This document shows positions 25,393 through 32,761 of a stretch of DNA of 32,880 nt, in pieces. The notes under the pieces are model-generated. The model was not told where the DNA came from. It worked only from the letters and a program-made list of their open reading frames with translations, and made no database searches. Source of the stretch: a virus; the IMG/VR virus record IMGVR_UViG_3300022204_000015, positions 1 to 32,880 of that record. One strand, given 5' to 3'. Made by a program: the position numbers and the translations under genes. Positions within the stretch are counted from its first letter, which is position 1; every line of letters starts with the position of its first letter.

Positions 25393-25423
25393 TTCCCTAA
25401 TTCGTTCCCTAGTTGTATCTTTG
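25393..25423 (+). promoter_or_regulatory. Integrase promoter
   Basis: TATCTTTG at 25416-25423 is a perfect TAnnTTTG box, 19 bases before the integrase ATG. The -33 position (TTC at 25393-25395) is weak and overlaps an arm-type box, suggesting control by integrase binding. Confidence 0.5.
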
Positions 25424-25442
25424 TTTTTTAAAACAGAGCCAC

Positions 25443-26711
25443 ATGTTTTACCTCAAAGATAAGAAAAAAGAACGAACCGCCATAGAGGCCATTATTTCCA
25501 TACAGGGAAAAAAATACAAATACGCCACCGGGCAAAGCGTTAACCCGGAAGGATGGAAGGATGGAAGGGCGAAATTTTCGAAAGCTTACCCTGATGGCAA
25601 AGCCATAAACCTGCGACTGGAGTTGATTAAAACCGCCATAAATGAGGCCGTTGAGTTTTACGCACTTGGCCGCACCGTCCCGCAAACGGGTGAGTTTAGG
25701 ACAAAGATAAACGAGCGTTTACAAACGGGACCGGGTGCCGGTAAAAAAACCCTTATTGCATACACCCGCCAGTTTATCCGTGATAAACATTTTTCGGACT
25801 CCACCTGCGACAAATACATTACCACCATCAACAAACTAGAGGAATACGAGGCACAGTATGGGCTTAAATTGTATTTCGACCACATCGACATTGCCTTTTA
25901 CAACCATTTTAAAACGTGGTTTTACAGCCTTATCAACCCACAGACTGGCGAGTCCTACTCCAAAAATTATTTTGGGAGCCTTATAAAATGTATTAAAAGG
26001 GTGATGCGTTACTCGCTCGAAAACGGCGACCATTACAATAAAAAATTTAACCACAGCGAGTTTGTGGTCGACAACGAGGATGCCGAAACCATTTACCTCA
26101 CCGCCGCCGAATTAATGGCCATTTTTAACCTGGAGATCAACACCGAAAATGTAAGGAAATTAACCACCGACCGCCGCGAAATTAACATCAACAAAAAGGT
26201 TCAATCTCTCCGCCGGGTACGCGACCGTTTTTTAATTGGCGCCTATACCGCCCTGCGGGTGAGCGATTTTAACCGCCTCAGTTTTGTACACATCGAGAAT
26301 GGGTTTTTAAAAGTATCCACATTAAAAACACAAACGCCCTTAATTATCCCGGTTCACCCGGTTGTGAGCGCCATTGTGGAGCGCGGCGGGCTCGATTACC
26401 GCGTAAGCTCACAAAAAATAAACGAACACATAAAAGAGGTCTGCCTATTGGCGGGTATTGTTGCACCCGTTACGCTTTCGCGCACCCACGCGGGCCGGCG
26501 GGTAGAAACCACCCTCCCAAAATACAAGCTGGTGGGAACACATACCGCCAGGCGCAGCGCCGCGACAAATATGTATAAAGCAGGCATACCCGCCATTAGT
26601 ATTATGAAAATTACCGGCCATTCTACCGAAAAAAGTTTTATGAAATACATTAAAATAACCGCCGAGGAAAACGCCGAGATTTTGGCGGCACACGCCTATT
26701 TTAACGGCTAG
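25443..26711 (+). CDS. int: Tyrosine integrase, Bacteroidota phage type
   Basis: Site-specific recombinase that inserts and, with an excisionase, removes the phage. Start ATG 25443 gives 422 residues beginning MFYLKDKKKERTAIEAIISI: an N-terminal arm-binding domain (GQSVNPEGWKDGRAKF at about 31-46), a SAM-like core-binding domain (about 105-215) and the catalytic domain with Arg272 (ALRVSDF), Lys295 (STLKTQ), His367 and Arg370 (HTARR), His393 (TGHS) and nucleophile Tyr402 (KYIK). All catalytic residues are present. It is adjacent to an attP-like region and convergent with the lysogeny genes, overlapping the next stop by 11 bases. Confidence 0.93.
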   Translation: MFYLKDKKKERTAIEAIISIQGKKYKYATGQSVNPEGWKDGRAKFSKAYPDGKAINLRLELIKTAINEAVEFYALGRTVPQTGEFRTKINERLQTGPGAGKKTLIAYTRQFIRDKHFSDSTCDKYITTINKLEEYEAQYGLKLYFDHIDIAFYNHFKTWFYSLINPQTGESYSKNYFGSLIKCIKRVMRYSLENGDHYNKKFNHSEFVVDNEDAETIYLTAAELMAIFNLEINTENVRKLTTDRREININKKVQSLRRVRDRFLIGAYTALRVSDFNRLSFVHIENGFLKVSTLKTQTPLIIPVHPVVSAIVERGGLDYRVSSQKINEHIKEVCLLAGIVAPVTLSRTHAGRRVETTLPKYKLVGTHTARRSAATNMYKAGIPAISIMKITGHSTEKSFMKYIKITAEENAEILAAHAYFNG

Positions 26712-29791: not shown

Positions 29792-30157
29792 ATGGATGTA
29801 AATTATTTTATTATACCTGGAGTCCGTAAAATGCCTTTTAAAAAGCTGGATCGCGAAAATAGAAAGGAGTTAATGTACGACGAATTTTCAAAGGTTTGTG
29901 AAAGCTACCAAATGGACCCCGAAGATGCCCTGCAAAACAACCGATCACGGGCACGCGAATATGTGGAAGTGAGACAATTATCCATTGCACTGTTTATCTG
30001 TAAATTAAAAGCCTCCACAGGCGAGTCTGGCAGGTTTTTTGGGAAAGACCACGCCACGGCTATACACGCCACCAAAACAATTCGCAACCTTGTCGAAACC
30101 GACCGCACCTTCCGATTACAAACCGCACCGCTTTTGGCAGGTGTTAACCTTTATTAA
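29792..30157 (+). CDS. DnaA domain IV-like protein (121 aa)
   Basis: The C-terminal 60 residues follow the DNA-binding domain IV of DnaA: RQLSIALFICKLKASTGESG, then RFFGKDHATAIHATKTIRNL, the position of the DnaA signature (GxDHxTVxHA). There is no ATPase part; the first 50 residues are a short helical region. Freestanding DnaA-C-like proteins in phage early operons could bind the phage origin or compete for host DnaA sites. I saw no perfect DnaA box (TTATCCACA) in the window by eye. It precedes the replication protein gene by two bases. Confidence 0.75.
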   Translation: MDVNYFIIPGVRKMPFKKLDRENRKELMYDEFSKVCESYQMDPEDALQNNRSRAREYVEVRQLSIALFICKLKASTGESGRFFGKDHATAIHATKTIRNLVETDRTFRLQTAPLLAGVNLY

Positions 30158-30159
30158 TA

Positions 30160-30822
30160 ATGGCAAAAGATCCAGGCTTTATATTTTACCCAGGTGATTA
30201 TTTAAGAGACACGCAAACATTAAGCGAAAAAAGCCAGGTGGCTTACGACCGTATTATGTGCGAACATATGAGAAACATATGTATTTCACACATGCAGCTA
30301 AAATTCTTCACAAAACGGCTCGATCAGAACGAAATCGACGAGCTGATGTTTGTACTCACCGAAACAAAAGAAGGTTACCAAATAGAATGGGTGGCCGAAA
30401 GTATCATTAAACGCAAGGCTTACAGCGAATCGAGGAGGCAAAACAGAAGCCATAAAACTACAAAACATATGAATAACATATCTAAAACATATGTAAAACA
30501 TATGGAAAATGAAAATGAAAATGAAAATGATAATATAAATGGTTTAAAAGGGGGTCCGGGGGAAAAAATAAATTTTGCCGATTTAGAGAACGAACAATGG
30601 TTTATCGGAGTATTATCCTTTTTAAACAATAAAATAGATTTTATCAAATTAAAAGAATACTGGCAGCAATACCAAAAGGCTATGATTGCCGACGATGATT
30701 TATACCGCGACGCTAAAAGTTACCGCAGCCACTTCCGCAATTGGGTTAAAATACAGACCGAAAAGAAAAACGGAACCGAAAGCGGGTTAATGAAACGAAA
30801 AAATGTATTTGCACAAATTTAA
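30160..30822 (+). CDS. Phage replication protein, origin-containing gene (220 aa)
   Basis: The first 90 residues (DPGFIFYPGDYLRDTQTLSE, then KSQVAYDRIMCEHMRN) resemble DUF1376-like N-terminal domains of phage replication initiators, a winged-helix fold. The middle (NENENENEND) is encoded by hexamer repeats and is surely a linker. The C-terminal part (YWQQYQKAMIADDDLYRDAK, YRSHFRNWVKIQTEKKNG) is the helical region often seen in such O-like proteins and may contact helicase. The gene itself carries six ACATATG boxes with 11-bp spacing followed by an AT-rich tract, so it probably contains its own origin, as lambda O does. Confidence 0.7.
   Translation: MAKDPGFIFYPGDYLRDTQTLSEKSQVAYDRIMCEHMRNICISHMQLKFFTKRLDQNEIDELMFVLTETKEGYQIEWVAESIIKRKAYSESRRQNRSHKTTKHMNNISKTYVKHMENENENENDNINGLKGGPGEKINFADLENEQWFIGVLSFLNNKIDFIKLKEYWQQYQKAMIADDDLYRDAKSYRSHFRNWVKIQTEKKNGTESGLMKRKNVFAQI
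30264..30281 (+). repeat. Iteron pair ACATATG, 11-bp spacing
   Basis: ACATATG at 30264-30270 and 30275-30281, spaced 11 bases start to start. Same box and spacing as the four-copy cluster at 30465. Confidence 0.65.
30465..30528 (+). other. Candidate replication origin: four 11-bp iterons plus AT-rich (GAAAAT)4
   Basis: ACATATG or ACATATC starts at 30465, 30476, 30487 and 30498, exactly 11 bp apart, so the boxes face about the same side of the helix. They pass through all three codon frames, so protein coding does not explain them. The run is followed at once by four GAAAAT hexamers (30505-30528) and ATAATATAAAT, a likely unwinding element. Confidence 0.6.
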
Positions 30823-30828
30823 TAAATT

Positions 30829-31395
30829 ATGTACGAACAAATAAAAGACCGACCCATCCGCCTCTTATCCGAAACCGTTTTAAATGAATGGATCTCTGAG
30901 GAGGTTATCGACCTCGCCAACGACTTTGGCCAAACACTGGCCGACGACCTGCTAAAACACATCTGCGAACGCCTGCGCGGCGCCATGCTTACAAAATACC
31001 GGAGCTGGGCAGTGGGCGATATACACGCCGCTTTACAGGTGGGTATGAGTGGAGCGTATGGCCCTGTACATAAAATTACGGTACAACGAATCTTTATGTG
31101 GCTGAAATCAGCCGAAAAGCAGCGGGTATTACACACCGTTGTTACATCCGAAAGCAACCGCAAGGAGCCTGAATTATTACCAGAAATAAGCTCAACCGAT
31201 TACGGCGCCTTTGTTTTGTGGTGTACACATAACAAAATATGGCTCGACGAGCTGGCACCCGGCGCCGATTTAAACCGCAACAACATTGAGCCACTCCGCC
31301 GCTATGCCTCCGAATTTGCCACAGCAAAAAAATCGGGCAAATTATACGAGTTCCGATATAAGCTAATGAACCAACGCGCTTACGCCACAACATGA
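30829..31395 (+). CDS. Hypothetical early protein (188 aa)
   Basis: A helical, soluble protein: RPIRLLSETVLNEWISEEVI at the start, a central basic WAVGDIHAALQVGMSGAYGP-HKITVQRIFMWLKS part, and an acidic-to-basic C-terminus (DELAPGADLNRNNIEPLRRY). It lies between the replication protein and HNH genes. Some Bacteroidota phages carry such a gene in this place, but I cannot name the family; helicase loader is one possibility by position only. Confidence 0.55.
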   Translation: MYEQIKDRPIRLLSETVLNEWISEEVIDLANDFGQTLADDLLKHICERLRGAMLTKYRSWAVGDIHAALQVGMSGAYGPVHKITVQRIFMWLKSAEKQRVLHTVVTSESNRKEPELLPEISSTDYGAFVLWCTHNKIWLDELAPGADLNRNNIEPLRRYASEFATAKKSGKLYEFRYKLMNQRAYATT

Positions 31396-31514: not shown

Positions 31515-31839
31515 ACCAGGGAGCCGCCAAAGGCTTTACAGACCAGTAGCGCAAACGGGTACTAAAATGGAACACCGCGAGCGCTCACGCAAAGAGTACC
31601 ACACCAACCGCTGGACGGTAATAAGCCGCAAATTCAGGGCATCGCACCCCCTTTGCCAGCGTTGTTTAGAAACGGGTATTGTTACCGAGTCGGAAGTAGT
31701 CGATCACATTATACCTGTTGAGGTACACGGCAAATTTTGGGACCGCTACAACTACCAGGCATTGTGTAAAAAGTGCAACATCATAAAAGGAAACGAAGAT
31801 AAAAAGCTAATCAATGAACACCGAAAAGCCATTAAATAA
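31504..31839 (+). CDS. HNH endonuclease
   Basis: An HNH nuclease of the kind that works with terminase during packaging. The motif order is CQRC (about residues 51-54), VVDHIIP with the catalytic His, a spacer, then NYQALCKKCN with the second CxxC and the Asn, a zinc-stabilised beta-beta-alpha fold. Basic N-terminus (GSRQRLYRPVAQTGTK). Length 111 is typical for phage HNH proteins beside terS. In a circular map it would lie just upstream of the terminase genes, separated only by the recombinase gene that follows. Confidence 0.88.
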   Translation: MPSKPGSRQRLYRPVAQTGTKMEHRERSRKEYHTNRWTVISRKFRASHPLCQRCLETGIVTESEVVDHIIPVEVHGKFWDRYNYQALCKKCNIIKGNEDKKLINEHRKAIK

Positions 31840-32761
31840 ATTGGTATCCGAATATACCGGGCAGATGGATGCCCGGGAATACGTACAGAAAAATACTTTA
31901 TGGGTGTTACAGCGTTTCATAACGTGGATGGTTAAGGCCCGCATTGATGTACGCAACCCACGCAGGGCCGATATAATACACTACAAAAACTCTGTTATAT
32001 CAGAGGGCAAAACACCCACAACAGTTAACAGATACCTGGCTCCTGTACGTGGTTTCTTTCGCTGGCTGGATGATAGCGGTATTTACACCAATGTAGCCGC
32101 GGGTATCAAGTCACCCAAAGACGACCGCGCTTTCCGTCGCGATTACCTTAACCCCGCACAAATAAGACAGCTATTAAACAGCATACAAACAGACACCATT
32201 GCAGGCCTGCGTAATTATGCAATGGTAAACCTAATGGTACACATGGGCCTGCGTAGGGTGGAGGTGTTGCGCCTTACCATTGGCGACCTCACCACAGCCA
32301 ACGATGGTTATGTATTAAACATCCACCGCAAAGGACGTACATACAAAGAGGCAATCAGAATTGAGGAGGAGGTATTCTACCCGATTGAAAGTTACTTACT
32401 AAATCGTAAGCACTACACCAACGACAGCCCAATGTTCACCAACCACAGCCAGCACACCACTGATAAGTTGAGCGCGGTTATGGTAAGTGGCATTGTTAAG
32501 CGCTACCTCAAACAGATCAGTAATTCAAAGAAACTAACCTGCCATTCGTTGCGCCACTCGGCAGCAATTAACTTGCTAAATGCCGGGCGCTCCATCTACG
32601 ACGTCCGCGATATGTTGGGCCATCGCAACACACAAACAACAGAAATCTATTTAAAGGCCATAGAGGCAGAGCGCCGCTTTTCCAACCCTGCTGCCCGCGA
32701 CCTTATTAAACTATACAGGAACGACATTAAAACAACGAATAAACAACGGCTTACTATATAA
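31814..32761 (+). CDS. Second tyrosine recombinase, XerC/D-like
   Basis: A 315-residue recombinase without the arm-binding domain of the first integrase. An N-terminal SAM-like domain (about 10-95: REYVQKNTLWVLQRFITWMV, TPTTVNRYLAPVRGFFRWL) is followed by the catalytic domain with Arg147 (MGLRRVE), Lys173 (HRKGR), His244 and Arg247 (CHSLRHSA), His270 (LGHR) and nucleophile Tyr279 (EIYLK), all present. It overlaps the end of the HNH gene by 26 bases. Possible jobs are resolution of phage genome multimers, a second integration system, or recombination of the hairpin-bounded segments elsewhere in the genome; none is proven. Confidence 0.88.
   Translation: MNTEKPLNKLVSEYTGQMDAREYVQKNTLWVLQRFITWMVKARIDVRNPRRADIIHYKNSVISEGKTPTTVNRYLAPVRGFFRWLDDSGIYTNVAAGIKSPKDDRAFRRDYLNPAQIRQLLNSIQTDTIAGLRNYAMVNLMVHMGLRRVEVLRLTIGDLTTANDGYVLNIHRKGRTYKEAIRIEEEVFYPIESYLLNRKHYTNDSPMFTNHSQHTTDKLSAVMVSGIVKRYLKQISNSKKLTCHSLRHSAAINLLNAGRSIYDVRDMLGHRNTQTTEIYLKAIEAERRFSNPAARDLIKLYRNDIKTTNKQRLTI

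Follow-up and report, generated by a model that had tools for sequence, protein, structure and literature searches.

Organization of the locus

The window, i.e. the whole 32,880-bp stretch of viral DNA that we analysed, contains an open reading frame with two clusters of short boxes, an AT-rich tract and a G-rich element within its coding sequence (Table 1). AlphaFold2 predicted three parts for the encoded protein: a winged-helix N domain (residues ~10-97, pLDDT mostly >90), a disordered linker (~98-138, low pLDDT) and a helical C domain (139-204). The second cluster of boxes is encoded within the predicted linker. Structure comparison returned generic winged helices only, the best match being the ORC2 winged helix (Z 5.5 over 70 residues), with a weak match to DnaD (Z 2.7) and no Foldseek hit at E <0.3; the matches support the predicted fold class, winged helix, and nothing narrower. 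Against Pfam DUF1376 the protein scored 14.3 bits, below the gathering threshold of 30.1.

Table 1. Features of the predicted initiator gene and its upstream neighbour (window coordinates)
Feature	Position	Strand	Basis or details
Upstream small protein with DnaA domain-IV-like (Bac_DnaA_C) DNA-binding domain	29792..30157	+	Pfam 2.1e-10
Predicted replication initiator gene, 220 aa	30160..30822	+	ORF, AlphaFold2 model, 80 viral relatives
N-domain iteron cluster (putative)	30264..30281	+	ACATATG at 30264-30270 and 30275-30281; spacing 11
Linker iteron cluster (putative)	30465..30504	+	Boxes at 30465, 30476 (ACATATC), 30487 and 30498; spacing 11, 11, 11
(GAAAAT)4 hexamer repeats, start of probable DNA unwinding element	30505..30528	+	
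C-free AT-rich tract	30505..30555	+	
G-rich element AAAGGGGGTCCGGGGGAAAA	30547..30566	+	Codes KGGPGEK; right behind tract

The next gene (30829-31395) had no match in Pfam, PHROG or NCBIfam and could not be assigned to a helicase-loader family. Two different tyrosine-recombinase (integrase) genes, at 25413-26711 and 31814-32761, flank the replication region.

Boxes at 11-bp spacing and the AT-rich tract

The preliminary description of this DNA had reported six ACATATG-type boxes in two clusters, of two and four copies, with an exact 11-bp spacing inside each. We confirmed the positions and found that the arrangement exceeds what shuffled sequence gives by chance. The five exact boxes are the sole + strand copies of ACATATG in the 32,880 bp; a looser copy (ACACATG at 30288) lies 13 bp further on, off register. 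In 200 dinucleotide-preserving shuffles of the whole window, the longest run of boxes at 11 bp (up to one mismatch) was 2, compared with 4 observed, and a 4-copy array of any 7-mer with a spacing of 8-24 bp occurred in 0 of the 200. Among 7-mer arrays with such spacing, the one at 30465 was the best in the window. Lone near-match boxes scattered elsewhere in the window were at or below chance. Successive boxes fall in different codon phases of the 220-codon gene, as had also been described, since 11 is not divisible by 3.

The run of (GAAAAT)4 and AT-rich DNA said to follow the boxes is present. Duplex stability within the gene is lowest over the 60 bp at 30478-30537, which rank among the least stable 0.45% of the window. 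A check by GC skew, proposed in the same description, was uninformative, with no turn at the locus.

Relatives of the encoded protein

Scanning viral contigs with the window protein gave 80 loci in two groups, group 1 being 46-77% and group 2 29-44% identical to it. The scan was redone with the N domain alone because the patterns of the first scan had included the linker peptide KHMENENE. One alignment (A1) was used in viral and genome contigs and a second (A2) in viral contigs; the A1 patterns overlap the first-cluster peptide, with codons left free, and those of A2 lie far from any box. Named bacterial matches to A1 were Flavobacterium and Flaviramulus genomes and two MAGs (titled Bacteroidetes and Deltaproteobacteria). 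Among annotated phages we found no relative of the window protein, and one partial match for a group-2 relative.

Group-2 relatives score 21-28 bits against DUF1376, below gathering. The C domains differ among relatives: one (L032) has Phg_2220_C, and another type is common to Vibrio phage DUF4373 proteins. C domains of one type, FPTFEDFWNxYDKKVGK..., stand behind unrelated N domains (L001, L062, L077, L338, L428). Such combinations suggest module swapping at the linker that carries the putative origin.

Conservation of the DNA in both clusters

Linker boxes were counted in non-redundant relatives with an ORF of at least 450 nt, shorter ORFs (e.g. L231, L233) being excluded. Each of the 63 relatives of sufficient length had at least one pair of linker boxes 10-12 bp apart, and 113 of the 121 linker pairs in this range were spaced by exactly 11 bp. 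Loss of the 11-bp spacing in relatives had been named beforehand as evidence against an origin; the spacing is kept. Box pairs in the linker were about three times as frequent as in synonymous-codon shuffles, and exact boxes numbered 31 compared with 4.4. No exact box was found in the remaining gene sequence of the relatives (14 kb). The codon for Asn depended on its place, being AAC inside the box (31/33) and AAT in the tract (46/46). Other linker codons were invariant: ACA for Thr (40/40), TAT for Tyr (47/47), CAT for His (47/47) and, in the variant box TCATATG, TCA for Ser (22/22). In two relatives (L096 and L137) the peptides (HMSPHMSIHMSSHM and HMSQHMSPHMYQHM) imply a box spacing of 12 bp rather than 11 bp.

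Codons of the first cluster were compared in 40 aligned group-1 sequences. CAT for His36 and AAC for Asn39 were found in 40/40, ATA for Ile40 in 38/38, GAA for Glu35 in 39/40 and TGT for Cys41 in 37/39, while the background use of AAC and ATA is 0.35 and 0.36, respectively. For most equally invariant N-domain residues of group 1 that lie outside the first-cluster boxes, codon use was near background. In group 2, whose members were identified by patterns distant from any box, there are three boxes with 11-bp spacing. They lie ~30-40 bp farther along the gene than in group 1 and encode another peptide (DMLKICKTYDED), and their codons are frozen too (ATA and ACA at 100%). Just past the first cluster, group 1 also shows unusually little variation in the codons CTA..TTC TTC ACA (30298-30312); this DNA contains TTCTTCACA, which differs from a DnaA box at one position.

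With box codons frozen and those of equally invariant residues elsewhere free, these counts show that selection acts on the DNA of both clusters and not on the protein alone. The pattern might instead be a by-product of the protein, generated by a low-complexity linker (KHMxNISKTYVKHMENENEN) and a conserved helix (CEHMRNICI), and the peptide is indeed conserved in close relatives. We consider this highly improbable: freezing of synonymous codons is confined to the boxes, so that the codon tests largely refute it, most of the array is lost on synonymous shuffling, the register is held across frames, and group 2 has its first cluster at different codons.

The tract behind the linker boxes is similarly constrained. 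In the relatives, the 45 nt behind the last box contain a mean of 0.57 C, where synonymous codon choice would give 3.2, and C is absent there from 28 of 47 relatives. The box-tract junction ACATATGGAAAATGAAAATG was found in at least 120 viral stretches. In one stretch (L114) the ORF that holds the junction of box and GAAAAT is very short and uses another frame (MKMKMKMK); this may be a frameshift, a sequencing error or a non-coding copy of the origin.

A G-rich element behind the tract in unrelated genes

The G-rich element, generalized as the pattern AAAGGGGGTNNGGGGGAAAA, was matched in 90 viral stretches, whereas the reversed control pattern gave 9 control-only stretches. The reversed control partly coincides with the element, and overlapping cases were removed before these 9 were counted; several of them are still near the element, with T at the same place and a shorter A-run. 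Among 80 element stretches examined (of the 90 matched), 54 lie in long same-strand ORFs, where the element is read as a KGGxGEK-type peptide in 49 and in another frame (RGxGGK) in 5. As a single DNA sequence is thus read in two frames, it is the DNA and not the peptide that is common to the carriers. In group 1, six sequences including the window have the element, exact or near, and two of these have GAGGGT in place of GGGGGT.

Grouped by N domain, 52 carriers fall into 17 families; their genes are initiator-like, and the element comes behind repeats and low-complexity tracts in them. One carrier (L388) passes the DUF1376 gathering threshold with 35.2 bits, and DUF6291 was matched by one carrier. 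A significant direct repeat was found just upstream of the element in 27 of 45 non-redundant genes. In 20 of these 27 the period was 11 or 12, compared with ~15% expected; a period of 12 can partly reflect four-codon repeats, which is not the case for 11. The repeats vary by family (e.g. AAAGCCCCTTC, GACAAATGTCA, TGTCGAGACAC), as would follow if every initiator recognised an iteron of its own.

A probable replication origin within the initiator gene

The boxes lie inside the coding sequence of the predicted initiator, are conserved beyond the need of the protein and adjoin an easily melted tract. A winged-helix N domain followed by a linker that bears the second cluster is the layout expected for an initiator carrying its own origin. 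On the best reading, this segment is very probably the replication origin of the phage, a Bacteroidota phage, of the lambda type and located inside the gene of its own initiator. The preliminary description had proposed a probable origin inside a replication protein gene, and it gains support from the codon freezing, the spacing and the predicted layout of winged helix and linker.

We considered whether the boxes are operators, at which the encoded protein or another phage regulator blocks or tunes transcription of the replication operon, the AT tract being incidental. Arrays of short boxes one turn apart would also suit cooperative repressors, and the first cluster is early in the gene; yet both clusters are within the gene and away from its start. 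Moreover, the C-free, unstable hexamer tract always comes directly after the linker cluster, for which an operator has no need, and the same order is found with other repeats in unrelated initiator-like genes. We therefore regard operators in place of an origin as unlikely. In part, the boxes might also serve the same protein as operators.

An origin could also be bound by something other than the encoded protein, such as a host protein or the DnaA domain-IV-like protein encoded directly upstream. Bac_DnaA_C-like homologues are found beside the initiator, upstream or downstream, in 18 related loci, some of which are duplicates of one contig, and the upstream protein is a possible accessory factor. 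Its gene accompanies a minority of the relatives, though, while the boxes are in all of them; ACATATG does not correspond to a DnaA box, and genes whose N domains are of other kinds carry other repeats. That such a protein binds the boxes in place of the encoded one seems quite unlikely. A DnaA-dependent, oriC-like origin was rejected, since near-matches to the DnaA box TTATNCACA are at chance in the window (37 compared with 36.3 expected).

For an origin read by the encoded protein, we propose the following scheme. The winged-helix N domain would bind the ACATATG boxes and, 11 bp being about one helical turn, neighbouring protein copies would line up along the same face of the double helix. 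The linker cluster adjoins the tract and would nucleate a complex that melts the (GAAAAT)n/AT-rich DNA and holds one strand single. The variable C domain would then bring the helicase loader or helicase of host or phage. The first cluster, ~180 bp upstream in the part encoding the DNA-binding domain, might recruit additional initiator, contact the second cluster through a DNA loop or have a regulatory role. We infer box binding and tract melting from lambda O (PMC7466680) and plasmid Rep proteins (PMC4081077).

Comparison with known origins

Origins inside initiator genes are already known, with lambda as the type case. In lambdoid O genes, iterons and an AT tract are found mid-gene, and O binds the iterons (PMC7466680). 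The origins of lambda and Stx phages resemble the present locus in their position in the middle of the initiator gene, in boxes followed by an AT-rich tract and in iterons that are written into the protein (PMC7466680). The parallel with lambda gene O that had been drawn from this sequence thus holds for the architecture; it does not extend to the protein family, the repeat unit or the presence of two clusters. Lambda has 4 (Stx phages 6) iterons with G-tracks next to the AT tract (PMC7466680), whereas here 7-bp boxes without G-tracks recur every 11 bp in two separate clusters. Membership of the window protein in Phage_rep_O (the lambda O family) was rejected, with no Pfam match at E up to 0.1. 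Lambda also has the helicase loader P, while no counterpart was recognised in the flanking gene here; conversely, the G5TNNG5A4 element after the tract is an addition with respect to lambda.

Iteron plasmids have their origin outside the sequence that encodes Rep. The present locus is like origins of this kind (RK2/TrfA type) in combining iterons and repeated tract elements with a winged-helix protein (PMC4081077). Plasmid winged-helix Rep binds the iterons and also one strand of the repeated DUE elements (PMC4081077). We found no sequence relation to Rep of the RK2/TrfA type.

A repeat-type ori has been predicted within a replication gene of the Francisella phage KIRK (fhv_0043, a Phg_2220_C replication protein; PMC7924643), and our relative L032 has the same C domain as the KIRK protein. 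KIRK is a single predicted case from another host phylum, and the available portion of that report gives no codon or spacing conservation (PMC7924643).

Phage proteins of the DUF1376, DUF4373 and DUF6291 types share matches or a C domain with the proteins described here; no function is annotated for these families, and the literature searched held no description of an origin inside their genes. Our results suggest a role as replication initiators for DUF1376-like proteins.

What is new here are iterons spaced by a helical turn, an additional cluster in the part encoding the DNA-binding domain and the G-rich element. The literature searched, which may miss older work on lactococcal, SPP1 and staphylococcal origins, contained no description of two-cluster iterons at 11 bp, of the codon evidence or of the recurring G-rich element. 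Most phage origins are unmapped, and in Bacteroidota phages codon freezing and 11-bp boxes together offer a way to pinpoint one to ~300 bp from sequence alone.

A possible common plan and the role of the G-rich element

Phages of very different hosts, with unrelated initiators, might share one plan, in which initiator-specific iterons of 11 or 12 bp, a C-free hexamer tract and a near-invariant, functional G5TNNG5A4 are placed in the initiator gene. We put this forward tentatively, judging it somewhat short of an even chance. If true, the window would be one instance of a widespread and so far unnamed class of origins. Within such a plan G5TNNG5A4 might, for example, stabilise a priming RNA:DNA hybrid or bound the melted bubble; these roles are a guess from the G-runs and the orientation on the coding strand. 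Confirmation of the element would provide a single origin signature of 20 letters for unrelated initiator families, and would connect transcription with initiation in a testable way.

A search of 345 Bacteroidota genomes gave no copy of the G-rich element, and these therefore supplied no prophage context. Nine viral stretches (L342, L346, L361, L365, L385, L387, L405, L413 and L417) contain near-identical non-coding copies of the element. Copies of the L342 type are preceded by an inverted repeat (CCCCCTTTGG) and have a context unlike that of initiator genes; this non-coding family may be unrelated to the other copies of the G-rich element.
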